In this document: positions 35,622 to 49,773 of the stretch, piece by piece
How positions within the stretch are numbered: position 1 is the first letter of the stretch
Layout of the letters: each line of letters begins with the position of its first letter
NCBI GenBank assembly: GCA_017619375.1
Contig: JAFZSL010000038.1
Location: forward strand, 111,389 to 175,388
Direction: 5' to 3'
Origin: Prevotella sp.
Lineage (GTDB): Bacteria; Bacteroidota; Bacteroidia; Bacteroidales; Bacteroidaceae
Length of the DNA stretch: 64,000 nucleotides
Program-made: the position numbers and the translations under genes
The notes under the pieces: generated by a model
Told to the model about the DNA's origin: nothing
The model's input: the letters and a program-made list of their open reading frames with translations, nothing else
Database searches by the model: none

Positions 35622-38600
35622 ATGAAACTACTGACAACCCTGCTGACGGCCACGTTGGCCATCCTCTCCGCCACTGCACAGACACAGTTGACCACCACCG
35701 AGGCACAGTCCCTCTTCCAAACCACGACGAAGGCGCGGGTGAGCATCCACGACCCCTCAGTTGTCTTCCATGAAGGTCAGCAACGCTATTACATCTTCGG
35801 TTCGCACAAGGTGGGAGCCTACACCCGCGACATGAAAAACTGGACCGTGGCCAACCCCATCTGGCGCACCGCCACCACCTATAACGCCTCCAATGCCGAC
35901 GCCTTCGTCACACCCGCCGTCAAGCAAGTGACCAAAGGTGGACAAATGGTGACCTTCCCGGCCTTCAACGCCCTGGACTGGTCAGCCCGTCATGACAGTA
36001 GTTACGACATCAATGGCAACATGTGGGCACCCGACGTCGTCTACAACCCCGTGATGAAGAAATGGTGCTACTATCTCAGCATCAATGGCAACGACTGGCA
36101 TTCGAGCATCATCCTGTTGACCTCCGACAACATCACCGGTCCCTACCTCTACCAAGGTCCGGTGGTCACCTGCGGGTTCAAGGATTCACAACATTCCTAC
36201 AAGGAGACCGACCTCGAACTTGCCATCGGCACACAGTCGTCCCTCCCCAGCCGCTACAACGTAGGGAGCAACTGGGGAAAGCGGTGGCCCCACACCATCG
36301 ACCCCGCCGTGTTCTACGATGGCGACGGCAACCTATGGCTCACCTACGGTTCATGGTCGGGCGGCATCTGGATGCTCCAACTCGACGAGAACACCGGCCT
36401 TCGCGACTACGACGTGACCTACCCTTCCATCAACGGCTCCAGCGACCAAGTGACCAGCGACCCCTATTTCGGCAAAAAGGTGGCCGGCGGCATCTATGTC
36501 AGCGGCGAAGGCCCCTACATCGAACGCATCGGCAACTATTATTATCTGTTCGTGAGTTATGGATTCTACTCCCCCGACGGCGGGTATGAGATGCGCGTCT
36601 TCCGCTCTACACAGCCCGACGGTCCCTACACCGATGCCAACGGCACAAGCGCCATCTTCCCCACATATAAGATGAACTACGGCAGAAACGGCGACACGCG
36701 AGGCGAGAAAATCATGGGCGCCTACAACCACTGGGGCGACATGACCGTTGGCGAATGCGCACAAGGCCACAACTCCATCATCGCCGCCAACGACGGAAAG
36801 ACCTACCTGGTGTATCACACCAAGTTCAATGACGGCACCATAGGTCACCAAGTACGTGTCCATCAGGTGTTTGTCAACACGGACGGATGGCTCGTGGCCG
36901 CTCCCTTCGAATACAACGGCGAGGCGGTCACCGACACGGACATTGCCACGAAGCAGCCTTTCTCCACGGAGGAGATAGCGGGAACCTACGACATGCTGCT
37001 GCACAAATATGGCATGGACTACGCCCACTACGAGGAAGTCACACCCCAGCGCATCAAACTCGGCAGCGACGGACAGGTGACGGGCAGCCTCAATGGTTCG
37101 TGGGCCATCGAGACGGGGACGGGATACATCACCCTCACCCTCGGCGGCGGCACCTACAAGGGCGTGATGCTCGAGGAGGAGATGGACGGCAGCACCACCC
37201 GGACCGTCTCCTTCACTGCCTGCAGCCAAGGAGGAGTCAACATCTGGGGATACAAGCGCCATCCCAAATACGAACTGGCGTGGCAGGTGCTCCACCTTTC
37301 AGCACCCGTCAGCGACGGACAAGCCATCATGGGCGACATCGACCTCCAAGGCTTTGCCGACGGCCTTGAAAACGTGACCGTTACGTGGACAAGCAGCAGG
37401 CCGGACATCATCTCTGACGAGGGGGTGTTCGACCCAGTGGGACTGACCGAAGACACACCCGTGACGCTCACGCTGAGGATGGAGACGCCAGGATACTATT
37501 GGACGGAATCCTACACTGTGACGGCACTTTCCGAGACGAACTCCCTGCCCGAAGCCGACTGGATGACAGGATTGCTGGCACACTATGGCTTCGACAACAC
37601 CCCCTTGGCCAACTCCTACAACGCCAACGAGGTGGCTGTGTTGAAAGCCAACGGCACCGCCACGATTCCCACCCTCGACACGGGCAGGCTGCAAGAGGGG
37701 AAGTCGGTTCATCTCTATTTCGGCATCAACGGCAACGAGAGTCATGTGCAAGTGCCCAACCCGCTTTTGGGGCAGACGCTCGAGGAAGGCGCCACCATCT
37801 CGATGTGGGTGAACCGCACCGACAACAACCTCTGGGACGCGCTCTTTGGTTTCGTGGATGGCAACAGCCGCTTCTACATGACAGGCAACACCTACGTGGG
37901 CTATAACAACGGCGCGGGCAACTGGATAGACCTCAACCATCCCAACAGTGTGGATACAGGCCACCTCTCACCGGGGGAGTGGCACCTCGCCACCCTCGTC
38001 GTTGCAAGAGGTGGCATCACGCTCTACGTAGATGGTGAGCAAAAGGTGTTTGGTGCATGCAACGGGTCCTGCAACGGCAGCGACGTGAGCAACGCCAACG
38101 CCTTTGATTACACCCTCATCGTCGACCACCTGGCCCGGGCCACAGAGTTCTATCTGGGCCGTGGGTCGTTCTGGGGTTCGGCCGACGCACGCATCGACGA
38201 CCTCCTCGTCTATAACCGACCGCTGTCGGCTGACGAAGCCTCCGCCCTCTATCAGATGGAGAGCCGCACATCGTTTGACTTCGCATCGGTACCGAGCGTG
38301 GAAAGGGAGATGTTGAGCAGCAAACTCGCCCTCATCAGAGCATTGAATGCCATCCCACATTCCGAGGACGTTGCAGGAGTGGACAACGCCCTCGACACCA
38401 GCCTCAGCAACATCGAGGCACAGATGGCGGGCAACGGACTACTCCCATTGGCCACACTCCTCAGCGAGGCAGAGCAAGCAGCCTTCACCTTCCTCAGCCA
38501 AGCGACACCGATAGACCCGGAGCAGCCGTTCGACCTCACCTTCCTATTGCGCAACCCCGACATGGAGAGCACCGAAGGATGGTCGAACTCCCCCACCCTC

Positions 38601-39242
38601 GACTTTTCCTGCGCGGAATACTACCAAACCGATTTCGACTTCCACCAGACGGTGTCTAAACTGCCCGCCGGCACCTACCAGTTCAGGAGCAACGCCTTCC
38701 AACGTCCGGGAAGGCCTGAGAACTGCACGTCGGCACCTGTCACGGCAGACATCTATTTAGGCAACGACAGCCGACAACTGGCTCACATCACCGCCGGCGC
38801 ACAAGCACAAAGCCTGGGCGGAGGGGAATCTTATGTCAACGGCAAATACATCCCCAACAACATGGAGGCCGCGAGCATCTATTTCGGCAAAGGACTATAC
38901 GAGAACAAAGTCACCTCTTCGCTCCTCACAGACCGAGGCCAACTGACCATGGGCATCCGCGGCACCAACCACGATGCCTTCCATTGGTGCATCTTCGACC
39001 ATTTCCGCCTGCATTATTTCGGTTCGCTCGACCCGCAATGGGTGGATGGAGTCGAGTTCAAGATGGGCGACGTCAACTGCGACGGCGACATCACCATCAC
39101 CGACGTGACATGCCTCGTGTCATATCTGTTGGGCACACCACAGCACATCTTCTGCCACCGAGCCGCCGACCTTGATGGCAGCGGACAGCACACCATCACC
39201 GACGTGACATGCCTCGTGAACCTCGTGCTTAATGCGAGATGA
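35622..39242 (+). CDS. Modular GH43 endo-arabinanase-like enzyme with dockerin-like C-terminus
   Basis: The 1206-residue secreted protein begins with a signal peptide (TLAILSATAQ) and a GH43 five-bladed propeller (residues about 38-430). Its acidic residues are visible: Asp44 in SIHDPSVVF, Asp138 in NMWAPDVV and Glu296 in SGEGPYIE. A C-terminal arabinanase-type beta domain (about 445-545), an Ig-like domain (about 560-640), a LamG/concanavalin-like domain (about 645-870) and a galactose-binding-like region (about 960-1140) follow. The last 60 residues hold two Ca-binding EF-like repeats (GDVNCDGDITITDVTCLVSYLL and LDGSGQHTITDVTCLVNLVL), the dockerin type I pattern. The likely substrate is pectic arabinan or arabinoxylan. 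Confidence 0.9.
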   Translation: MKLLTTLLTATLAILSATAQTQLTTTEAQSLFQTTTKARVSIHDPSVVFHEGQQRYYIFGSHKVGAYTRDMKNWTVANPIWRTATTYNASNADAFVTPAVKQVTKGGQMVTFPAFNALDWSARHDSSYDINGNMWAPDVVYNPVMKKWCYYLSINGNDWHSSIILLTSDNITGPYLYQGPVVTCGFKDSQHSYKETDLELAIGTQSSLPSRYNVGSNWGKRWPHTIDPAVFYDGDGNLWLTYGSWSGGIWMLQLDENTGLRDYDVTYPSINGSSDQVTSDPYFGKKVAGGIYVSGEGPYIERIGNYYYLFVSYGFYSPDGGYEMRVFRSTQPDGPYTDANGTSAIFPTYKMNYGRNGDTRGEKIMGAYNHWGDMTVGECAQGHNSIIAANDGKTYLVYHTKFNDGTIGHQVRVHQVFVNTDGWLVAAPFEYNGEAVTDTDIATKQPFSTEEIAGTYDMLLHKYGMDYAHYEEVTPQRIKLGSDGQVTGSLNGSWAIETGTGYITLTLGGGTYKGVMLEEEMDGSTTRTVSFTACSQGGVNIWGYKRHPKYELAWQVLHLSAPVSDGQAIMGDIDLQGFADGLENVTVTWTSSRPDIISDEGVFDPVGLTEDTPVTLTLRMETPGYYWTESYTVTALSETNSLPEADWMTGLLAHYGFDNTPLANSYNANEVAVLKANGTATIPTLDTGRLQEGKSVHLYFGINGNESHVQVPNPLLGQTLEEGATISMWVNRTDNNLWDALFGFVDGNSRFYMTGNTYVGYNNGAGNWIDLNHPNSVDTGHLSPGEWHLATLVVARGGITLYVDGEQKVFGACNGSCNGSDVSNANAFDYTLIVDHLARATEFYLGRGSFWGSADARIDDLLVYNRPLSADEASALYQMESRTSFDFASVPSVEREMLSSKLALIRALNAIPHSEDVAGVDNALDTSLSNIEAQMAGNGLLPLATLLSEAEQAAFTFLSQATPIDPEQPFDLTFLLRNPDMESTEGWSNSPTLDFSCAEYYQTDFDFHQTVSKLPAGTYQFRSNAFQRPGRPENCTSAPVTADIYLGNDSRQLAHITAGAQAQSLGGGESYVNGKYIPNNMEAASIYFGKGLYENKVTSSLLTDRGQLTMGIRGTNHDAFHWCIFDHFRLHYFGSLDPQWVDGVEFKMGDVNCDGDITITDVTCLVSYLLGTPQHIFCHRAADLDGSGQHTITDVTCLVNLVLNAR

Positions 39243-39320
39243 GCACAGCCATTCATGTCGTTTTTTGCAGACATACATAAAGTGTAACTTTTTGACTTCA
39301 AGGCCACACTTCAATACAAT

Positions 39321-42300
39321 TTACGCCACTCCGCCAAAATGCTGACTGACGTAGTTATATACAGCGTCACGGTAGTAGTTGATACTTTCGTCAGAATAAC
39401 TTTCAGGGAGTTCTTTCCAAAGCATATCACGAATGGTGATAATGATGGAAGCCCTTGTTTCTTGCTTGTCGAACGGATGATCCATCGTGGCCAGAAGAGT
39501 TTTTATCTTCTCCAGCAAATCCTTGGCTACAGTCTTGATTTTCTTGATGTCTTCTTTCGAAAGGTCATCCTTCATCAACACATCATACATGGACAGTTGT
39601 TCGTCATTCTCAAAACCCTCTCGGATATACCGTTTTTCCTCTTCTGTCAGTTGGTGTGAAAGGTTCATCAGTTCCTCAAAGGTCTTTTCTATCGTGACAC
39701 GGTTCTGCTCGTTGTTATAGTTCTGAATGATTTCCTGGTATTTTTCGTAGAAATTGATGCGTGAAGGATTTGCTGCCAACAATTTTGCAATACGTTCTTG
39801 CAATAGTTCTTGTATATCTTTCAACACAAGGTTCTTCTCCTTGCTCTTGGCAAACTCACGTCGGAGCAAGTCAAAGTCAATGCCACTGATGTCAAAACGC
39901 CGACTGTCTTCAGCCACCATTGTTGCATCAATCTCCAGATGTTCGTTCACTATCTCATTGATAGCTACACTAAGGTCTGTGATGTCGGCATGCTTGCGCT
40001 TCTTCTGCAATTCCTTGTAGATGGCCTCAATGGCATCCTTCTGTTGCTTCATTTCAGAAGCAATGTCTTCACGGTCGAGGTATTTCCAGTAATTCAGGAG
40101 TGTTGTCACAAAGGTACAATATGACTTCCTGATTTCAAGTGTTTCGCACATTGCATTGGCGGCCTTTTTCAACAATGACAATTTCTCAAAGTTTTCAGCC
40201 TTGATTAAATCGTCCAAATCAAAGCCATGTTCCTTCAAAAAGTCAATGGTGGTGGCTATTGTTTCCAGCACACGCTTGATGAGTTCCTTTTTGTCAATCG
40301 TAGGGTCGTTGCCTGCGCCTCCTTCTGGGTTGGCAGTATAGTCGGCCAGAGCCTGTCGCAGTGCTTTCACAATGCCGATATAGTCAATAATCAGCCCATT
40401 CGTCTTCCCTTCCGACACACGGTTGGCACGGGCAATGGTCTGCATCAGCGTATGGGCCTTCATCGGTTTGTCGATATAGAGACAAGAGAGTGTCTTTACG
40501 TCAAAGCCTGTCAGCCACATGGCACAGACAAAAACGATGCGCAACTTTGAATCGCCATCTTTGAACTCCTTGTCCAGCTCTCGCTTCTCCATCTTCTCAC
40601 GGTGTGGCTTGATGTCAAGTCCCCACTTCTGGAATGTCTGTATCTCGTTTTGTTCCTGCGATACCACAACAGCCATTTCCGTTTCCTTCATCCACTCCAG
40701 TTTACGCTTCATCTCCTGCGTTTCTTGTTGAGAAGAACAGGTGGCAATCTGCGTTTCAAGGGCCTTGATTTCTTGTTGCCAATATTCCTGCACATAGTTG
40801 TACATCCGCACACAGGTCACCTTGTTATAGCCTACCATCATCGCCTTGCCTGATGTCCAAAGGTCACTATAATGCTTGACAAAGTCTTTGGCCACAATAC
40901 GCAGACGTTTCTTGGCGGTCAACAGGTGTACTTCCTTGGCAAACTCTCGTTCCAACTTTATCAATTGCGATGCATCCATGTCGCCAGCCTGTTCCAGTGC
41001 TGAAGCAATTTCCTCGTTAATCTCTGGATTCTTCAAGTCCTGCAACTTCTCGCCCCGATTCTCATAATAAAGCGGCACGGTGGCTTTATCCTCCACAGCC
41101 CGTTTGAAATCATAGATACTCACATAGCCACCAAACGTTCGGGCAGTGATATTATCGTTCGAGAGAAGCGGCGTACCTGTAAAACCAATACGATTTGCCG
41201 TAGGCAGAAGGTGCATCAGGTTATCGGCAAAGATACCGTTTTGAGTGCGGTGAGCCTCGTCGCTCATCACGATGATGTCGTGGTCGGGATAGATGGGTTC
41301 TGCCTTCGGGTCGTTGAACTTCTGGATGAGCGAGAAGATGAATGATGGATTTCCCTTCAGTTTTGTCTTCAAGTCTTCGCCGCTGCTGGCAATGAATTTC
41401 TTTGCCTTTACGTTCCCCAAAAGACCGCAGTTCTCGAATGTATCACTGATTTGCTTGTTCAGTTCGTCGCGGTCGGTGAGCACAACGATGGTGGGAGAGC
41501 CTTCAAACTTTCTGCGAATCTTCTGTGCCAAAAACAGCATTGAATAACTCTTGCCACTACCTTGCGTATGCCAGAACACCCCTAACTTTCCTTTTACGCA
41601 TTCACGATTGCGATACATCTCCACTGCCTGATTCACCCCCAAGTATTGGTGGTTGCGAGCCAGAATCTTGGCCGTAGTGCCTCCGCTGTGGTCGTAAAGA
41701 ATGAAGTTCTCCAAAAGGTCGAGGAAGTTTTCTTTCTTGCAAATGCCTCGCAGCATGGTTGGCAGTTCTATATTGCCAGATTCCTGTTCTGTCAGTCGTT
41801 TCCATTCGTGGAAAAACTCCCTTTTGGATTCGATGGTGCCCACACGAGCCTCCAGCCCATTGCTGAACATGATAAAGGCATTGTGGTAGAACAATTGCGG
41901 GATGGTGTCGAGATAGTCGCGGTAGTTTTGGTTGAAGGCATCCTGCACCTCCACATCATGATTCTTCAGTTCCATGAATAGCAAAGGCAGGCCATTCACG
42001 AAGCCTACGATGTCTGCCCGGCGATGATACAAGGCTCCATACACCCACATCTCGCGGACACACAGGAAATCATTTTTCTCCGGTGAAGCGAAGTCAATTA
42101 CCTTGGCACGCACTTCATCCGTTTCGCCGTTAGGCTTCACACGAGTCACAGGCACACCGTCCTTGATGTATTGATACTTCTGCTCGTTGATTTGCATCAG
42201 CGTCTGACTGCTCATGTGCTCCGTCATGCGCTCTACAGCTTCCGCCAGTTGCTTTTCCGTCATCCACGGATTCAGCGTCTTCAGAGCCATGCGGAAACGC

Positions 42301-42461
42301 CCCGTCAGCAATACCTCGTGATAACTGCTACGTCCTAACGTGCTATTGACACCTAACAACTCATTGTCATAGGCATATATGCTCGTCCAACCCAGTTCTT
42401 TTTCCAGCAACTCGGCTGCACTCCGCTGTATCAGTTGGTCTTCGCTATAGTCCTTTGCCAT
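39321..42461 (-). CDS. hsdR: Type I restriction enzyme R subunit
   Basis: HsdR is the translocase and nuclease subunit that cuts unmodified DNA. The 1046-residue protein has the N-terminal nuclease region (ADIVGFVNGLPLLFMELKN, PD-ExK type), a helicase with Walker A HTQGSGKSYSM, the DEAH box MSDEAHRTQ and FTGTPL, a second RecA domain with IARANRVSEGKTNGLIIDYIG, and a long helical C-terminus. It is intact and last in a five-gene leftward operon, 13 nt behind the small VbhA-like gene. Confidence 0.96.
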   Translation of the reverse strand: MAKDYSEDQLIQRSAAELLEKELGWTSIYAYDNELLGVNSTLGRSSYHEVLLTGRFRMALKTLNPWMTEKQLAEAVERMTEHMSSQTLMQINEQKYQYIKDGVPVTRVKPNGETDEVRAKVIDFASPEKNDFLCVREMWVYGALYHRRADIVGFVNGLPLLFMELKNHDVEVQDAFNQNYRDYLDTIPQLFYHNAFIMFSNGLEARVGTIESKREFFHEWKRLTEQESGNIELPTMLRGICKKENFLDLLENFILYDHSGGTTAKILARNHQYLGVNQAVEMYRNRECVKGKLGVFWHTQGSGKSYSMLFLAQKIRRKFEGSPTIVVLTDRDELNKQISDTFENCGLLGNVKAKKFIASSGEDLKTKLKGNPSFIFSLIQKFNDPKAEPIYPDHDIIVMSDEAHRTQNGIFADNLMHLLPTANRIGFTGTPLLSNDNITARTFGGYVSIYDFKRAVEDKATVPLYYENRGEKLQDLKNPEINEEIASALEQAGDMDASQLIKLEREFAKEVHLLTAKKRLRIVAKDFVKHYSDLWTSGKAMMVGYNKVTCVRMYNYVQEYWQQEIKALETQIATCSSQQETQEMKRKLEWMKETEMAVVVSQEQNEIQTFQKWGLDIKPHREKMEKRELDKEFKDGDSKLRIVFVCAMWLTGFDVKTLSCLYIDKPMKAHTLMQTIARANRVSEGKTNGLIIDYIGIVKALRQALADYTANPEGGAGNDPTIDKKELIKRVLETIATTIDFLKEHGFDLDDLIKAENFEKLSLLKKAANAMCETLEIRKSYCTFVTTLLNYWKYLDREDIASEMKQQKDAIEAIYKELQKKRKHADITDLSVAINEIVNEHLEIDATMVAEDSRRFDISGIDFDLLRREFAKSKEKNLVLKDIQELLQERIAKLLAANPSRINFYEKYQEIIQNYNNEQNRVTIEKTFEELMNLSHQLTEEEKRYIREGFENDEQLSMYDVLMKDDLSKEDIKKIKTVAKDLLEKIKTLLATMDHPFDKQETRASIIITIRDMLWKELPESYSDESINYYRDAVYNYVSQHFGGVA

Positions 42462-42474
42462 AATACATCTTAAT

Positions 42475-42783
42475 TTATATTGGTCGTCCTTTCTTCGCCT
42501 CGATGGGGTCAGCCTCTCTATCTACTTGTGTGTAGGTTTCGTATTCTTTCCTTTCTTCCTTGTGCTTATGCTTTTCGTCATAATACTGATCTAAAAGCTT
42601 ATTAACCTCTGTCATTGACAGTTCTCCTTCGATATTTTTGCGGGCTAATTCTTTCAGATAGTCAGATACTGTCAGCAAGTCCACCTGTTGCATACCGATA
42701 GCAATGCTCCAGTTTCTTGCTCGTTCTATTTGCTCTGGAGTACCATTTTGTATATAATCATCAAACAGCCCTTTTTGATTCAT
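42475..42783 (-). CDS. Small VbhA-like (Fic-antitoxin-like) protein
   Basis: The 102-residue protein has a helical core, EQIERARNWSIAIGMQQVDLLTVSDYLKELARKNIEGELSMTEV in two adjoining stretches, that resembles VbhA antitoxins of Fic proteins (helix, turn, then x-x-x-Y-I-x-G-E-I-S). The inhibitory S/T-x-x-x-E-G/N motif expected of class I Fic antitoxins is not present; the equivalent stretch reads AIGMQQVD. The C-terminal 35 residues are highly charged. It lies between hsdS (19 nt) and hsdR (13 nt), while the Fic gene is on the other side of hsdS. The function is inferred from weak resemblance and context. Confidence 0.6.
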   Translation of the reverse strand: MNQKGLFDDYIQNGTPEQIERARNWSIAIGMQQVDLLTVSDYLKELARKNIEGELSMTEVNKLLDQYYDEKHKHKEERKEYETYTQVDREADPIEAKKGRPI

Positions 42784-42802
42784 TTTTTCAATTTAATTAG
42801 GG

Positions 42803-43966
42803 TCATACTAATATTTCTCCACTCATCAGTTTGGGAAGCAAGCGGTCGCGGGCTTCGGCAAGGAGGCGGATTTGAGATTGGAGATGCCTTAGTCTCTTAA
42901 ACATTGGCATAACTATTTTTGAGAACTTAGCTTGTAAGTTCATAGGAGGCTCCATAACAGAAATGTTTGAAAGAGTATTTCTATTAAGCGAAGGTATGGC
43001 ACCGCCACTGTTCAAAGTCGTAAAGTCTACTGTTTTAAGCAGGCAGTAGATGTAAAACACGTTATGTCCTTTAAAGTCACTTATGTAAAGTGAAGTGTTA
43101 TGTGGCCAATAATTATCCCAAATAAGTTGGTAAACGCCTAAACTACCAGACCTACCCGTTACAATACCAGGTCCTTCAATCTTGTATTTGTTGTGATTTC
43201 CTATTATTGAAGTAGAACCAACGACAGGATAAGGTCCATCAACAAACTCCTTATGTGTTAGGTCATACCCTCTATGGAAGGTAAGAATGTTATTTACATT
43301 TTTCTTCTCCCAACCCTCCGGCACACCATCGACGATCTTTGTGTTTTCGTGTCCAGGGAAGCGGAGGTCAACGAACCATTCCTTATAGAGCCGCTGCGCT
43401 GCCTCCTCCAATAGCTTTATCTGCTTTTGATAGTTTTCTATCAAAGAGTCGTAGCGGGAAAGGATGGTGGCGATGCGGTGCTGAGTCGACTTCTTTGGAA
43501 CGAAACACTCATAGTCACAGATTTTTGTAGGTGAAGTATGATGAACTGTTGAACCTGTGGAAGTGTTTGCAATTGTACGCTGATAAGCACGAGTTCGCAT
43601 CAACCAATATATATAACCTCTATCACACTCGTCATTTTTGAAAGACACCAAACCTATTCGTTGGTTGTGAAGGTATATCCTTTTGTCGGATTTTGGTATA
43701 TAGGCACTAAAACCAAGAGTGTCTATAGTTTTGCTTAAATCAGTCATAGTAACAATGAAGTCCCCTTCTTTCAAGATGTAATCCTGTGGTATCTCTCCAT
43801 CAAAGAATTTGCACTTCTTTTCTTGGAAGCCTCCACCTATCCTGAAATTTCCAGGGGTAACGAGAACAATATTATTATCATCTTCGATAATATGTTCCCC
43901 ACTAAAAGCAAAGCCATGCTTAATTTCGAGGATATCTCCCAACTTAACTTTCTTCCACTCACTCAT
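42803..43966 (-). CDS. hsdS: Type I restriction-modification specificity subunit
   Basis: HsdS recognises the bipartite DNA target. The 387-residue protein has two target-recognition domains, each starting W-(E)K-K-V/N-x-x-(I/L) (residues about 4 and 219). The first is followed by a conserved helical spacer LLEEAAQRLYKEWFVDLRFPGHE, the second by a similar helix RLLAEARDRLLPKLMSGEI at the C-terminus. This is a normal full-length HsdS with no truncated second copy or inverted repeats nearby, so no shufflon. It overlaps the Fic gene by 4 nt (ATGA). Confidence 0.95.
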   Translation of the reverse strand: MSEWKKVKLGDILEIKHGFAFSGEHIIEDDNNIVLVTPGNFRIGGGFQEKKCKFFDGEIPQDYILKEGDFIVTMTDLSKTIDTLGFSAYIPKSDKRIYLHNQRIGLVSFKNDECDRGYIYWLMRTRAYQRTIANTSTGSTVHHTSPTKICDYECFVPKKSTQHRIATILSRYDSLIENYQKQIKLLEEAAQRLYKEWFVDLRFPGHENTKIVDGVPEGWEKKNVNNILTFHRGYDLTHKEFVDGPYPVVGSTSIIGNHNKYKIEGPGIVTGRSGSLGVYQLIWDNYWPHNTSLYISDFKGHNVFYIYCLLKTVDFTTLNSGGAIPSLNRNTLSNISVMEPPMNLQAKFSKIVMPMFKRLRHLQSQIRLLAEARDRLLPKLMSGEILV

Positions 43967-44961
43967 TCCTCGTCCTCCTTTCTAATGACTTTCCAATGTC
44001 CTGTCTTGTCAGAACCAATACGACAAATGTACTTGCGACTTTGTAGAGTTTTAATGGTTCTTGCAACAGTGGGGCGAGAGAGTTGACAGTATTCTGCCAA
44101 CTTCTCATAAGAATAATCAGGGAATGAACTGATAGCAGCCAATACAGCTCGCTCTGACTTAGACAAAGCAGACACATTAGATTTTACAGTATCATTTACA
44201 GTATCATTTACAGTATCATCGTCCCTCATCAGTCTTAGCAAATCGAGTTGGGTGGCTATTACACAGTCAGCGATAAATTCCGTGAACACCTCTGGACGCG
44301 TATGGGCAGTTTCGAGTGAATAGAAATAATCATGACGCAGAATAGCGGGTATAATAGCTATGGTAAAACCATTACGCAACAAAGCAAGGTTCATCAACAA
44401 ACGCGCCACACGACCATTGCCATCTATAAAGGGATGAATGAAGACAAAACGCTGATGCAACGTGGCAGCCAATTCTATAGGGTGCAGTTTTTTCTCATTC
44501 CCATTATACCATTTGACGAGTTTCTGCATCTCTTCAGGAATCTTTGATACAGCCGATACTGCATAACGACTACCACTGATATATACCTTTACGTTACGGT
44601 AGTGGCCTGCCTTCTCGGCATCAATCTGCTGGTAAAACAAGCGATGAAGATTTAGGATATCCTCTTCTGTCAGTCTTTCTTTCTCCGTAATCTGATATAC
44701 GTAGTCGTATGCTTTGGCATGACCCACAGCCTCGTAATGGTCTCGCAGGGGTTTGCCTTCTATCGTCAGCCCATCTTCTATCACCACTTTTGTTTCCGAT
44801 TCCGTCAGGCTGTTGCCTTCAAGGGCATTGCTCGTATAGGTTAGCCCCACACGATAGTACTCCCTCAACGACTTAAGCGTTTCAGGGGGCAAGGGCCTGT
44901 TTGCAGATAACAAACGGTTGTTTTCGTCAGCTTTTTTATATTTAGAAATTAATGCATCCAT
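43963..44961 (-). CDS. Fic-domain AMP-transferase with winged-helix C-terminus
   Basis: Fic proteins usually AMPylate target proteins. The 332-residue protein has an intact catalytic motif HPFIDGNGRVAR (residues 176-187, His176). Near the N-terminus it has TSNALEGN, matching the inhibitory S-x-x-x-E-G motif of class II, self-inhibited Fic proteins (Ser44, Glu48, Gly49). After the Fic domain a linker of three DTVN/DTVK repeats (residues 249-260), coded by a 12-bp tandem repeat at 44186-44220, joins a winged-helix segment (YSYEKLAEYCQLSRPTVARTIKTLQSRKYI). It lies between hsdM and hsdS with a 4-nt overlap, so it is built into the restriction operon. A TTG at 44976 is the alternative start. Confidence 0.92.
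   Translation of the reverse strand: MDALISKYKKADENNRLLSANRPLPPETLKSLREYYRVGLTYTSNALEGNSLTESETKVVIEDGLTIEGKPLRDHYEAVGHAKAYDYVYQITEKERLTEEDILNLHRLFYQQIDAEKAGHYRNVKVYISGSRYAVSAVSKIPEEMQKLVKWYNGNEKKLHPIELAATLHQRFVFIHPFIDGNGRVARLLMNLALLRNGFTIAIIPAILRHDYFYSLETAHTRPEVFTEFIADCVIATQLDLLRLMRDDDTVNDTVNDTVKSNVSALSKSERAVLAAISSFPDYSYEKLAEYCQLSRPTVARTIKTLQSRKYICRIGSDKTGHWKVIRKEDEE
44186..44220. repeat. 12-bp in-frame tandem repeat in the fic gene
   Basis: Three units of ACAGTATCATTT on the plus strand (the third cut at its end) encode DTVN-DTVN-DTVK on the minus strand. Unit gain or loss would change linker length without a frameshift. Confidence 0.85.
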
Positions 44962-44976
44962 CTCATTAAGTATCAA

Positions 44977-46791
44977 TCATTTATCTTTCAGTTCCTCCCA
45001 TGCTTTTTGTATTTCGTCCATCAATACGTTGGCCTCCGCATTCAGTTTTGCTAACTCTGCATGAATCTCATTCATACGCTCATGGAAGTCCACGCCGTCA
45101 TCTTCCTTTTCTGCTACGCCGACGTAAGCACCAGGAGTCAACGAATAGTTCTTTTCTTCAATCTCCTGAATGGAGGCAATCTTGCAAAGACCGAGGACAT
45201 CTTGGTATTCTCCATTCTCGCCAAACTTTGAAACAAGCCATTCACGTTGGCGAGCAGTTTCGAGGACGTCTTCCAGTTCTGCTATTAATGCGTTCTGCTC
45301 TGACTCAATGCGCTTTTTGTCCTTACGCTGGGCGTTGGCAATGAGTTGCTTAGCCTCTGCCTTCCGTTTCTGAATGGCTTCCTCTAAAGCAGGAATGGTT
45401 TGGCCTTGTAGTGCTTTGTCATAATCTGCTATCAGTGCCTTATACTTCTCCTTCTCTCCCCGATACAGATGCACGATGGCTTGCAGGTTGCGGAGTTGCC
45501 ACTCTGTCCATTCATTCAGCGTACGGTCAACCACTGTATAGTAATTGCGGGCATCAATGAAAAGCACCTTGTCACGGATGTCTGCGTTCTTGTTCCTATC
45601 AAAGAACCACAGCGAACAGGGCAGCGAGAGCGTGTAGAAGAAATTATTACCCACACTCACCATCACATCCACATCGCCCGTGCGCACCAATTTTTCACGG
45701 ATGTCACAGTCTTTGTTGGCACTGTCTGTCGCCGAACTGGCCATTACGAAACCAGCGCGACCATGGTCGTTCAGGTATGCATGGAAATAGCTTATCCAGA
45801 GATAGTTGGCATTGCCGATTTCTTTGGTCTTCTGATTCACACCCGGCAAGCCAAAAGGCAGACGACCAGCAGCAGATGCAGACTCTGCTTTCACCTTATC
45901 AACATTGAAAGGAGGATTGGCCATCACATAGTCACACTTACCTGCAAGGTTATGGGCATCGTGGTAGAAGGTGTTGGCTTCATCGCCGGAGATGATTTTT
46001 CCGTTGAGTCCATGCACTGCCATATTCATCAGACAGAGTTGGGCATTGTATTCCACCTTTTCCTGGCCGAAGAAGGTCATGTTGGTGTTGGCGTTCAGTC
46101 CCGCCTGATTCACAAAATCACCCGTCTGCACAAACATACCGCCACTGCCACAGGCCGGGTCGAGCATCACCCCTTGTGTGGGTTCCAGCACATTCACCAG
46201 CATCTTCACCAACGACTTGGGAGTGAAGAACACACCGTCGTCTGAGGCAACGGCTTTGGCAAACTTGGAGAGGAAATACTCATAGATACGGCCTATGATG
46301 TCACCGCCCACTTCGTCTATGGTCTTGTTGTTGAAGATGCGAAGCAACTCGCGCAAGAGGTCATCGGCAAACATCGTATAGGTCTTGGGGAGCACACCCG
46401 TCAGCTGTTCGCTTTGTTCCTCGACCAATTGCATGGCATTGTTCACGGCTTCGCCCAGCGAGTTGATGTCCTGTCCGTCCTTAGTCTTCAAATGAGCATC
46501 GAAAATATTATCTGGGAGATTCACCAAATAGTCGAACTGAGCCTCACGAGGCAGATAGAGCGCACTCTTGGCGGCAAAGTCGCTCGGCTCCACCGGCATC
46601 ACACGCCCACCACGACTCGGGCGGTTTTCCAGAATCTCAGCCTCCACCATCTTATATCGGCTATAGGCATATCGCAAGAAAAGCAACGCCAATACAGGCA
46701 TGCAATACTGGCTGCTTGTCAACTTACTTCCTTGTCTTAGAAGATCTGCCGATTCCCAAAGTTCGGCTTCGAGTTTTCGTATATTAATCAT
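44977..46791 (-). CDS. hsdM: Type I restriction-modification DNA methyltransferase subunit
   Basis: HsdM methylates adenine in the HsdS target. The 604-residue protein has the SAM-binding motif LDPACGSGGMFVQ and the catalytic N-P-P-F motif in YVMANPPFNVDK, an N-terminal helical HsdM domain and a C-terminal coiled-coil region. It is the first gene of the operon hsdM-fic-hsdS-vbhA-like-hsdR. Stop codon 44977 and the following fic gene are 15 nt apart or contiguous, depending on the fic start. Confidence 0.96.
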   Translation of the reverse strand: MINIRKLEAELWESADLLRQGSKLTSSQYCMPVLALLFLRYAYSRYKMVEAEILENRPSRGGRVMPVEPSDFAAKSALYLPREAQFDYLVNLPDNIFDAHLKTKDGQDINSLGEAVNNAMQLVEEQSEQLTGVLPKTYTMFADDLLRELLRIFNNKTIDEVGGDIIGRIYEYFLSKFAKAVASDDGVFFTPKSLVKMLVNVLEPTQGVMLDPACGSGGMFVQTGDFVNQAGLNANTNMTFFGQEKVEYNAQLCLMNMAVHGLNGKIISGDEANTFYHDAHNLAGKCDYVMANPPFNVDKVKAESASAAGRLPFGLPGVNQKTKEIGNANYLWISYFHAYLNDHGRAGFVMASSATDSANKDCDIREKLVRTGDVDVMVSVGNNFFYTLSLPCSLWFFDRNKNADIRDKVLFIDARNYYTVVDRTLNEWTEWQLRNLQAIVHLYRGEKEKYKALIADYDKALQGQTIPALEEAIQKRKAEAKQLIANAQRKDKKRIESEQNALIAELEDVLETARQREWLVSKFGENGEYQDVLGLCKIASIQEIEEKNYSLTPGAYVGVAEKEDDGVDFHERMNEIHAELAKLNAEANVLMDEIQKAWEELKDK

Positions 46792-46851
46792 TCCTTATAT
46801 GTTTAAAGGATCTTCCTTCAACCAAAAGATTTCATAGTCTTGATTCTGTTA

Positions 46852-46859
46852 CAAAGGTA
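46852..46859 (-). promoter_or_regulatory. Promoter -7 box of the restriction operon
   Basis: The minus strand reads TACCTTTG with TTG about 18 nt further upstream (46880-46878), giving a leader of about 55 nt before hsdM. Confidence 0.55.
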
Positions 46860-46950
46860 GTCATTTTGTTTCACAATCAACGGTTCATCTATTGAAATCT
46901 TTCTTTGAACGGAATAAAAATATTGAAATCCGCATTTTTTTCACCCATTC

Positions 46951-46982
46951 GGTACATTGTACCAAATATCTTTGTATCTTTG
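46951..46982 (+). promoter_or_regulatory. Palindromic operator next to a doubled -7 box of the xylanase gene
   Basis: A perfect 13-bp palindrome GGTACATTGTACC (46951-46963) lies 3 nt ahead of two back-to-back TATCTTTG boxes (46967-46974 and 46975-46982). The palindrome occupies the usual -33 zone. The start codon of the GH10 gene is about 100 nt downstream. Confidence 0.6.
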
Positions 46983-47085
46983 CAAAGCAAAAACAGGGGG
47001 CATCCCGGTTGTTGATTTCCGTTTGGCAGCAATCGGCATGCGCCACCTTGGAGATTAAGAAAACTATTATCAAACTATAACACTT

Positions 47086-49773
47086 ATGAGAACATTTTTT
47101 ACTCACTTCACCAACCTCAAGTTAAGAAGGCTTGTGCCAGTAGGTCTGTTGCTGGCGGCAACCCTCACACCCTTGACGGCAGACGCACAGTTGTCGTCGA
47201 ATCCCGACAAGTTTTTGGGCAACATCACGACAAGTTATTCCGTGGACTACGGCAATGAGAAGTTCTACCAACTGTGGAACCAGATCACCCCAGAGAACGA
47301 ATCGAAATGGTCGTCGATTGAAGGTTCACGCAGGGGCAGTTTCAGTTGGGGCGGCTGCGACAACGCCTTCAACTACGCCAAGAACCACAATTTCCCATTC
47401 AAGTTCCACTGCCTCATCTGGGGTGCACAGTATCCCAACTGGCTCAACAGCCTCTCCACCGAGGAACAGTACAAGGCCATCGAAGAGTGGATGGACGCCA
47501 TCAAGGCACATTATCCCGAACTCCCTTTGATTGACGTGGTCAACGAGGCCGTTGCAGGCCACCAACCCGCCCCCTACAAGGCAGCCCTTGGCGGTGACGG
47601 TGCAACAGGGTTCGATTGGATCATCAAGGCCTTCGAGATGGCCCATGAGCGTTGGCCGGACGCCATCCTCATCTACAACGACTACAACACGTTCCAGTGG
47701 CAGCGCCAGCAGTTCATCGACCTTGTCAAGACGCTGCGCGACGCCGGCGCCCCCATCGACGCCTACGGCTGCCAATCGCACGACCTCACCGACATGAGCC
47801 TGAGCAATTTCAAGGCCGCCATGGTGGAGATTCAGAACGCACTGAAGATGCCAATGTACAGTTCAGAATATGACATCGGCACGTCCGACGACCAACTCCA
47901 GTTGCAGCGTTACAAGGAGCAGATTCCATACATGTGGGAAGCCGACTACTGCGCTGGCATCACCCTGTGGGGATACATCTACGGCCACACCTGGACCACC
48001 GACGGCAACTCCGGCCTGATTCGCGACGGAAAGGACCGTCCCGCCATGACTTGGCTACGCGAATACATGAAGAGCGAAGCCGCACAAAACGCGAAGAGTC
48101 CCTTCCCCGGCATGGTGAAGGAAGCATCTGTCTATGTCAAGGCAGCATCCCTCGCCGTCACCAAAGGTGAAGAGGTGCCCATCACCATCAACGCACGACT
48201 GAAGACCAAGACGATAGACCATATCGACCTCTATGTCAACAACCAATTGGTATGCACGTTGACAGAAGCCCCATACAAAGCCTCATATACACCCGAGGAA
48301 ACCGGCAAGTACGACATCAAAGCTGTTGTCACAGCTACCGACGGTGCTCAGTTCGAACGTTGGTCAGGGTTCACCGCCTACAACCCACGCTCACCCTTCA
48401 AGGGAGAGATTGAACTCCCCGGCACCCTCCAGGCAGAGGACTTCGACATGGGCGCAGAGGGCATGACCTACCATGACTCCGACACGCAGAACGAAGGCGG
48501 CACCAACTACCGCAACGACGGCACCGGCGTGGACATCGTCACTGGCAACGGCGGCTACGCCATCGGTTACACCAACTCCGGCGAATGGCTGGAATACACG
48601 GTGAACGTGAAGGAAGCCGGTGTCTACTCCTATGAAGCATACGCCTCATCGGGTGTCACCAACTCCTCCTTCAACCTCGCCTTGCACACCCAGGACGGCC
48701 TTGTCCCGCTCACCAACAACATCGCCGTTCCGATGGTGACCTCCAACAGTTGGAGCACCTACAGGGCACTCTACGGCAGACTCCTCGTCCCGCTGGAGGA
48801 AGGCAAGCAAATCATCCGCATCAACATCACCGGCAGCAGTTGCAACATCGACAAGGTCGTGTTCAAACACGTCGATGTGAATCCCGACATACAAATCGCC
48901 ATCTCCGCCGACCCGTCGCCGGCCACCATCAACGAGAACACCACCATCAAGGTGGATGCCTCGTGCGAGACCAGCCCTGTCAAGAGCGTGAGAATCTACC
49001 AGGGCGACGTGCTGATGAAGACCCTCACGGAAGCACCATACGAGACAACCTACAAGCCAACGGCGAAAGGCACCTACAACTTCACCGCCGTGGCAGAGAC
49101 CGAAGACGGCAAGGAGTCGGAGATTGCCAAATTCACTTTGACAGCCAACCCGAGGCGCACAGCCTACAAGGGCATCATCACCTTGCCCGGCATCCTTGAA
49201 GCCGAGAACTTCGACAAGGGTGGCGAGGGCTTCACCTACCATGACTCCGACTCCCAGGATGAGGGCGGCGCCAACTACCGCTCCGACAGCGAGGGCGTGG
49301 ACATCGTGAAGTTCAACAGCAGTTACGTCATCGGCTACACTGCCGCCGACGAGTGGTTGGAATACAGCGTCAACGTCACCTCGGCCGGCAAGTACTCCTA
49401 CGTGGCCACCGTCTCCTCCGGCTCCACCGGTTCCGGCTTCTCCATCGGTCTGTCGGATGGCAGCACAGTGACCAAACTTGCCCAAGTGAACGTGCCGCAG
49501 ACGGCCAACAACAGTTGGGACACCTACAAGACGGTGACCGGCACGCTCAGCAAAGAACTTGAGGAAGGCCAGCAAATCCTGCGCATCACCATCACCGGCC
49601 CGTACTGCAACATCGACAAGATTGAGTTTATCAACACAACGGGCATCGAAGACGCCATCGTCAACGAGGACAACAACCGCTTCAGCAACATCTACAACCT
49701 CTGGGGCGTCCGCGTGGACAACAACTACAAGGGCATCGTCATCAAGAACGGCAAGAAGGTCATCCAGCGATGA
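47086..49773 (+). CDS. GH10 endo-1,4-beta-xylanase with two CBM6 modules
   Basis: GH10 enzymes cleave the xylan backbone. The 895-residue secreted protein has a signal peptide (LTPLTADAQ) and a GH10 barrel (residues about 38-345) with acid/base Glu154 in DVVNEAV and nucleophile Glu261 in YSSEYDI. Two Ig-like plus CBM6 pairs follow (Ig about 355-445 and 600-690; CBM6 about 450-595 and 695-840), the CBM6 copies sharing AEDFDMG/AENFDKG, YHDSD, EGG-x-NYR and GEWLEY/DEWLEY. The C-terminus YNLWGVRV...GIVIKNGKKVIQR is the local exported-protein tail. It has its own palindrome-bearing promoter and terminator. Confidence 0.96.
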   Translation: MRTFFTHFTNLKLRRLVPVGLLLAATLTPLTADAQLSSNPDKFLGNITTSYSVDYGNEKFYQLWNQITPENESKWSSIEGSRRGSFSWGGCDNAFNYAKNHNFPFKFHCLIWGAQYPNWLNSLSTEEQYKAIEEWMDAIKAHYPELPLIDVVNEAVAGHQPAPYKAALGGDGATGFDWIIKAFEMAHERWPDAILIYNDYNTFQWQRQQFIDLVKTLRDAGAPIDAYGCQSHDLTDMSLSNFKAAMVEIQNALKMPMYSSEYDIGTSDDQLQLQRYKEQIPYMWEADYCAGITLWGYIYGHTWTTDGNSGLIRDGKDRPAMTWLREYMKSEAAQNAKSPFPGMVKEASVYVKAASLAVTKGEEVPITINARLKTKTIDHIDLYVNNQLVCTLTEAPYKASYTPEETGKYDIKAVVTATDGAQFERWSGFTAYNPRSPFKGEIELPGTLQAEDFDMGAEGMTYHDSDTQNEGGTNYRNDGTGVDIVTGNGGYAIGYTNSGEWLEYTVNVKEAGVYSYEAYASSGVTNSSFNLALHTQDGLVPLTNNIAVPMVTSNSWSTYRALYGRLLVPLEEGKQIIRINITGSSCNIDKVVFKHVDVNPDIQIAISADPSPATINENTTIKVDASCETSPVKSVRIYQGDVLMKTLTEAPYETTYKPTAKGTYNFTAVAETEDGKESEIAKFTLTANPRRTAYKGIITLPGILEAENFDKGGEGFTYHDSDSQDEGGANYRSDSEGVDIVKFNSSYVIGYTAADEWLEYSVNVTSAGKYSYVATVSSGSTGSGFSIGLSDGSTVTKLAQVNVPQTANNSWDTYKTVTGTLSKELEEGQQILRITITGPYCNIDKIEFINTTGIEDAIVNEDNNRFSNIYNLWGVRVDNNYKGIVIKNGKKVIQR

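Follow-up and report, generated by a model that had tools for sequence, protein, structure and literature searches.

Why should a type I restriction operon carry, between its own subunit genes, both a Fic AMP-transferase and a small protein resembling the antitoxins of Fic enzymes? The question is raised by a 64,000-nt stretch of Prevotella sp. DNA, here called the window (assembly GCA_017619375.1, contig JAFZSL010000038.1, positions 111,389 to 175,388 of the forward strand), in which the genes run hsdM, fic, hsdS, a small stand-alone VbhA-like gene and hsdR, all on the minus strand. A first-pass annotation suggested that the Fic and the small protein could form a second layer built into the operon. 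Comparison with orthologous operons confirms that the arrangement is real and recurrent, and shows that two slots, one between hsdM and hsdS and the other between hsdS and hsdR, exchange their contents, mostly with the same 4-nt junction to hsdS. Because these contents have been swapped again and again among related bacteria, the survey suggests that back-up defence genes dock in these slots, and that Fic and the VbhA-like protein have no special partnership there. The operon comprises the following features, given in window coordinates.

44977..46791, minus strand: hsdM, type I methylase subunit, 604 aa (N6_Mtase 4e-75, HsdM_N 4e-13, PADLOC MTase_I 1e-268)
43963..44961, minus strand: fic, class II Fic AMP-transferase by motif, 332 aa, in the hsdM/hsdS slot (PF02661 6e-26)
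43963..43966, minus strand: 4-nt overlap of the fic stop and the hsdS start, from the open reading frame (ORF) coordinates
42803..43966, minus strand: hsdS, specificity subunit, 387 aa (Methylase_S 1e-28, in two stretches)
42475..42783, minus strand: stand-alone VbhA-like gene, 102 aa, in the hsdS/hsdR slot (PDC-S72 3e-22)
39321..42461, minus strand: hsdR, type I restriction subunit, 1046 aa (TIGR00348 4e-146, HSDR_N 1e-41, SWI2_SNF2 3e-66)

The profile matches to HsdM, HsdS and HsdR, encoded together, mark a type I restriction-modification system. The ORF coordinates agree with the five-gene minus-strand operon of the first-pass annotation, including the fic/hsdS overlap and gaps of 13-19 nt (15 nt between hsdM and fic, 19 nt between hsdS and the small gene, 13 nt between the small gene and hsdR). 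The fic product is counted from an ATG, and a TTG at 44976 is a possible alternative start. No terminator-like site lies on the minus strand within the gaps, and the genes may be read as one transcript, as the first-pass annotation proposed.

Related operons were gathered by a genome scan with HsdM, from which the best 80 of 139 confirmed places were kept (77-94% identity). The hsdM/hsdS slot could be resolved in 69 operons and the hsdS/hsdR slot in 59; 11 of the 80 dropped out for the first slot and 21 for the second since HsdS or HsdR was not found downstream, and 18 of those 21 have less than 6 kb after hsdM. ORFs were called greedily by length and combined with phmmer matches to the window proteins, a procedure that misses residents shorter than 60 aa without such a match and may admit spurious small ORFs, for example a 102-aa ORF of L153 (loci are cited by L numbers). 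The slots hold 149 resident proteins in 35 clusters. YhcG/DUF1016 nucleases contribute 39, all in the first slot; class II Fics 21, split 11 and 10 between first and second; a cluster that we call Bro-N-like Fic, after a representative matching Pfam Fic, PADLOC PDC-S04 and PDC-S13, 18 (16 and 2); and VbhA-like proteins 11 (7 fusions and 4 stand-alone), with one in the first slot and 10 in the second, which houses six of the seven surveyed fusions. Counted by operon, the 59 fully resolved ones contain YhcG in 34, class II Fic in 19, Bro-N-like Fic in 13, a VbhA-Fic fusion in 7, a stand-alone VbhA-like gene in 4 and RhuM in 3. The first slot is empty in five of 69 operons, and in 54 of the 64 that are occupied the last resident overlaps hsdS by exactly 4 nt.

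Chance placement of fic is ruled out by the 20 class II fic matches that fall inside the operons, against none in 601 kb of flanking DNA; VbhA-like matches number 11 inside and three outside. The first-pass annotation had proposed such a survey and would have put the link down to chance had fic proved confined to a single type I operon and the small protein unrelated to VbhA; both genes are found embedded in orthologous operons, embedding recurs widely, and the VbhA relation holds up through the protein's kin.

How fast do the slots turn over? On an HsdM tree of 70 rows, each labelled by its first resident of at least 75 aa, first-slot content needs at least 27 changes, compared with a mean of 32.0 when labels are shuffled (as low in 3 of 200 shuffles), so content is only mildly clustered on the tree; the operon with the HsdM nearest to that of the window, 94% identical, has a different first-slot resident. 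Such rapid turnover, together with the many unrelated residents, would also fit slot genes that are purely selfish, profiting from co-expression with an addictive restriction operon while contributing nothing to defence. We regard this as quite unlikely, however, as the commonest residents come from few families (YhcG, Fic, Bro-N-like Fic, VbhA-Fic and RhuM), which PADLOC lists under PDC, presumably for 'phage defence candidate'.

By its motifs, the Fic protein of the first slot is an intact class II enzyme of canonical build that ends in a C-terminal winged helix. The first-pass annotation had already noted the winged helix and an inhibitory motif within the protein, and the following features support this from sequence and alignment.

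44812..44832, minus strand: N-terminal inhibitory motif SNALEGN, Fic residues 44-50, read from the sequence and aligned
44401..44436, minus strand: Fic active-site motif HPFIDGNGRVAR, residues 176-187, with R2 present, from sequence and alignment
44026..44166, minus strand: winged helix-turn-helix of Fic, residues 266-312 (HTH_36 2e-7)

SNALEGN conforms to the class II inhibitory pattern [S/T]xxxE[G/N] and HPFIDGNGRVAR to HxFx[D/E]GNxRxxR. Across the Fic region the protein matches SoFic (1e-34) and PADLOC PDC-S04 (1.5e-34), and its best relatives by sequence in the Protein Data Bank (PDB) are FICD chains, FICD-type class II Fics (5e-35). Among the embedded class II Fics, HP[FW]xDGNGRxxR is kept in 20 of 21, and [S/T]xxxE[G/N] in the aligned column in 19 of 21, the exceptions being one 111-aa fragment (L173) and one protein with His after the Glu. 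The window fic is under purifying selection, with dN/dS of 0.03, 0.09 and 0.06 against three of its four orthologues of 82-83% identity (dS 1.2-3.7; the fourth pair is saturated). Its subfamily recurs at the hsdM/hsdS place of a distantly related type I operon (L094) and at L096, within an operon of type III-like character; the members at L093 and L095 have no recognised restriction subunit as a neighbour. Two further loci (L099, L100) match the window Fic over its C-terminal third alone (residues 203-331, 72-84% identity). HPW-type Fics occupy the first slot in nine of nine cases and SSLAIE-type Fics the second in ten of ten. In this survey the SSLAIE subfamily occurs only in the hsdS/hsdR slot and the HPWVDGNGRMSR subfamily only in the hsdM/hsdS slot; loci with these slot-specific subfamilies are L140, L143, L149, L159, L163, L164, L170, L180, L204 and L210, the last with one of each.

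What, then, is the small protein? VbhA-type proteins are known Fic antitoxins, and the resemblance to them noted in the first-pass annotation is supported, through the protein's kin and at the level of sequence profiles. Residues 4-82 match positions 3-81 of the 377-position PADLOC profile PDC-S72 (3e-22), a family of one-chain fusions of VbhA with a VbhT-type Fic; the match covers the N-terminal region, and the small protein has no Fic half. Pfam VbhA (PF18495) matches 18 of 20 of its kin at E<=0.1, with a best value of 1.6e-6 that was not shown to pass the curated cut-off, and does not match the window protein itself. In Pfam and NCBIfam the latter reaches no cut-off (sub-threshold: GEMIN8, EF-hand_2 and luciferase_Beta), and in PHROGs it has no match and a sister gene has one weak match (3e-4). 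By profile, the closest solved chain to the fusion family is VbhT (9e-10); no VbhA chain was found in the PDB in two profile searches. The residue of most interest is the following.

42679..42681, minus strand: D35, an Asp where the inhibitory Glu of VbhA would be expected, from the alignment of VbhA-like domains

The [S/T]xxxE[G/N] motif is indeed absent, with MQQVDL instead, and we therefore call the protein VbhA-like rather than VbhA. Of 45 aligned VbhA-like domains, 44 have an Asp where the Glu is presumed to lie; these domains were cut around an xLQ anchor at a minimum of 70 residues, which builds a bias into their L/M and Q counts. [LM]QxVD[GL] replaces [S/T]xxxE[G/N], and R2 is Ala in 15 of 15 fused Fics (ORFs scoring above 150 bits against one fusion). 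With the Glu replaced and R2 gone, the known Glu-R2 lock appears to be missing on both sides of the family. A structural model of a fusion (pLDDT 74) has a helix at residues 21-40 that ends at the equivalent Asp, before Gly41, and when it is superposed on class II Fics its VbhA-like domain falls on their N-terminal part; a model of the small protein alone, made without an alignment, is too poor for use (pLDDT 55). The Prevotella genome also carries a second PDC-S72-type gene (contig C1, L001, 1498-2319, plus strand, 273 aa), the Fic motif of which is degenerate, with Asn in place of the catalytic His (NAFQYANSRTT).

The stand-alone form differs from the fusions by a conserved tail.

42478..42546, minus strand: C-terminal tail YETYT...DP..AKKGRPI of the stand-alone form, from alignments A2 and A5

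Among 399 genomes of the family, 100 have matches to the small protein. Fusions, recognised as open frames of 326-419 aa, account for about two thirds of the places listed. The tailed stand-alone form is rarer (window, L101-L105, L175, L181, L201 and L208). Orthologues 52-60% identical to the window protein keep the tail, with the consensus TYT....D....K.GRP, and these roughly 25 residues are missing from ten aligned fusions. A search of 251 genomes with the tail gave matches in four, all of them in stand-alone VbhA-like genes; this search was not exhaustive, for the more divergent tail of L105 (genome G633) escaped it. Within the type I family of the window the stand-alone gene occurs in the window, L175, L181, L201 and L208. 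Elsewhere its settings vary: at L105 it belongs to a different type I operon, whose hsdM/hsdS slot holds a RhuM/Fic gene; at L101 it is part of a type I-like system and RhuM is close by; at L104 it sits in a type III-like system, flanked on either side by RhuM-type genes; at L102 it lies between a RecQ helicase gene and a gene whose product scores against RhuM; and at L103 it is at a contig edge. Eight viral loci yielded no tailed stand-alone gene, the Fic part of the fusion type standing in the same or the next frame in all eight; three plasmid records and one phage record gave short matches.

Could the small gene be a mere orphan of a VbhA-Fic fusion, kept as immunity against such fusions or not yet lost, with no role in the operon? 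It lies in the same slot as the fusions and has its 5' half in common with them at the DNA level. Identical bases per 30 between the L187 fusion and the L208 stand-alone gene run 28, 29, 28, 27, 25 and then 17, 20, 11, 12, 10; between the L202 fusion and the L175 stand-alone gene they run 27, 25, 29, 30 and then 19, 18, 12, 7, 8, 10, and L201 and L202 likewise have the 5' half in common. The common 5' end implies that the two forms recombine. At L126 (4267-4608, minus strand), moreover, a VbhA-like domain is joined to what appears to be the C-terminal part of a fusion, the Fic domain being gone. An orphan would hardly be expected, however, to keep its tail across orthologues of 52-60% identity in type I, type III-like and other settings, nor to be under purifying selection, as the small gene appears to be: six closer pairs of stand-alone genes give dN/dS of 0.04-0.43 (0.43 for L175-L201), and these pairs carry the argument, as dS against the window gene is near or past saturation. 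We accordingly think the orphan explanation unlikely, and the low dN/dS and the tail also disfavour a decaying remnant. Partial forms occur as well: a shortened gene before hsdR at L222 retains the N-terminus and the tail without the VbhA core, and L223 retains the core without the tail. A second stand-alone VbhA-like group, with the tail YEIVP..S....NK.RRPELYK, is found in other settings (L108-L115, L128, L182 and L190; the two genome sets overlap, and L110 and L182 are the same place with the same protein). At L182 and L190 its gene lies upstream of hsdM on the opposite strand, at L128 directly after a class II fic, and at L114 a 141-aa protein without a VbhA match carries a YEIVP-type tail.

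Are Fic and the VbhA-like protein nonetheless a dedicated toxin-antitoxin or regulator pair, with the small protein as an additional brake that restrains the class II Fic in trans? The gene order of the window recurs at L208, where the Fic belongs to the HPW subfamily; both genes are also present, among others, at L175 and L181, and at L128, with no type I subunit match nearby, the VbhA-like gene follows the class II fic. A class II Fic occupies the first slot in three of the four operons with a stand-alone gene and in seven of the 55 others (Fisher p 0.013), a value weakened by the relatedness of the rows, and small proteins that neutralise Fic toxins, AS1 for EcSofic and Fti3, offer precedents. 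However, the stand-alone gene needs five changes on the HsdM tree, at most two independent pairs are informative, and the phylogeny-controlled comparison finds one or two pairs pointing the same way and none the opposite way (median p 0.5), which is not significant. L105 and L223 carry RhuM-type genes in place of class II Fic, and L201 a YhcG nuclease. With no inhibitory Glu in the small protein and no R2 in the relatives fused to Fic, its fold looks tuned to another type of Fic; the gene adjoins hsdS and hsdR and no class I Fic toxin, the operon's only fic being class II. A special pairing is thus not established, and a dedicated one seems improbable to us: each gene occurs in related operons without the other, the first slot turns over freely, and the relatives of the small protein are fused to a VbhT-like Fic.

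Another possibility is that the small protein controls or alleviates the restriction enzyme itself, through HsdR and without regard to Fic. Its gene lies directly before hsdR in the window, L208, L175, L181 and L201, as does the shortened gene of L222. Yet other genes stand between it and hsdR in L105 and L223, it also occurs beside other systems, and the established role of VbhA-type proteins is that of Fic antitoxins; we give this reading rather little credence.

The explanation that we favour, with a little better than an even chance of being right as a whole, is a slotted type I operon with a Fic back-up effector and a VbhA-derived accessory. Operons of this kind, found in Bacteroidales, have two fixed accessory slots into which defence-type genes are swapped. 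The overlapping junction would couple production of Fic to that of HsdS, and Fic would be kept inactive by its own inhibitory helix, perhaps also by operon proteins or DNA. Should the restriction enzyme be inhibited or fail, Fic might be released, AMPylate a host target and stop growth, a scheme drawn by analogy with PrrC in EcoprrI. The first-pass annotation had suggested that Fic might modify a host or restriction protein once the HsdM/HsdS balance is upset. The small protein most likely still binds a Fic-type fold and may act in trans as an immunity protein or regulator against VbhA-Fic fusions, possibly also against the resident Fic; this part, for which AS1 and Fti3 are the models, is less well supported than the role of Fic as effector. 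We also speculate, as a long shot, that the stand-alone protein is a repurposed antitoxin that traded its toxin for a tail and became a swappable adaptor, tying Fic or RhuM effectors to the restriction enzyme until inhibition of HsdR frees them. If true, this would be a restriction-guard module made from the antitoxin half of a toxin-antitoxin fusion.

The survey turns one odd operon into a general pattern, in which Bacteroidales type I operons serve as two-slot cassette holders, filled often from a short list of candidate defence genes. Exchanging the residents of a single operon would put the guard idea to the test within one system. The survey also points to a conserved stand-alone VbhA-like gene. 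Part of this is already catalogued: the embedded Fic is PADLOC PDC-S04 and the VbhA-Fic fusion PDC-S72. The tailed stand-alone VbhA-like gene looks new; it is no family of its own in Pfam, NCBIfam, PADLOC or PHROGs, and neither it nor the two-slot exchange was found described in searchable papers, a body that excludes the bioRxiv collection and most subscription journals.

Around and within the operon, 39200-47100 contains 18 promoter-like and 11 terminator-like sites, against 12.2 and 6.4 in shuffles; they do not separate the operon genes, and the sigma-70 consensus may be unsuited to these bacteria. Upstream of hsdM only short or imperfect repeats were seen, and we claim no operator. Two large plus-strand genes flank the operon (35622-39242 and 47086-49773), with products that, judged by eye, resemble secreted polysaccharide-degrading enzymes.

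How does the locus compare with known systems? Embedded defences are reportedly the subject of Payne et al. 2024 (bioRxiv 10.1101/2024.01.29.577857), a study cited in PMC12255303. The placement of a growth-arresting gene between hsd genes recalls PrrC in EcoprrI, RloC and DarTG2. PrrC is an anticodon nuclease between hsd genes and a precedent for an embedded guard (PMC2610378, PMC12707154), restriction-linked genes are reportedly treated by Miller et al. 2005 (via PMC2610378), and DarTG2 lies between hsdS and hsdR in a type I operon of E. coli, at a site that its authors call a potential recombination hotspot (PMC12255303). The effector of the window is a Fic, unlike PrrC, and its silencing by the restriction enzyme is proposed by analogy. 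Passages of PMC5379612 mention VbhA and Fic genes and not this arrangement. Small proteins that neutralise Fic toxins, compared here by description rather than sequence, include AS1, a 47-aa protein whose gene follows that of its Sofic (PMC12249575), and Fti3, which neutralises Fic3 and is described as having no apparent relation to the Fic antitoxins known before (PMC5651007). Like PDC-S04 and SoFic, the window Fic is a class II protein with an N-terminal inhibitory motif, an intact active site and a C-terminal winged helix; it differs in its setting, a type I operon in which fic and hsdS share 4 nt and a VbhA-like gene follows after hsdS. Homology links the small protein to the N-terminal 80 residues of PDC-S72, and it lies in the same hsdS/hsdR slot, but without the Fic half and with a tail of its own. 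As for the class I Fic modules VbhT/VbhA and EcFicT/EcFicA, the fusion family is nearest VbhT among solved chains and kin of the small protein match Pfam VbhA, whereas [LM]QxVD[GL] stands for [S/T]xxxE[G/N] and Ala takes the place of R2 in the fused Fics, which points to a VbhA-Fic family with the known inhibitory lock, Glu to R2, changed on both sides.

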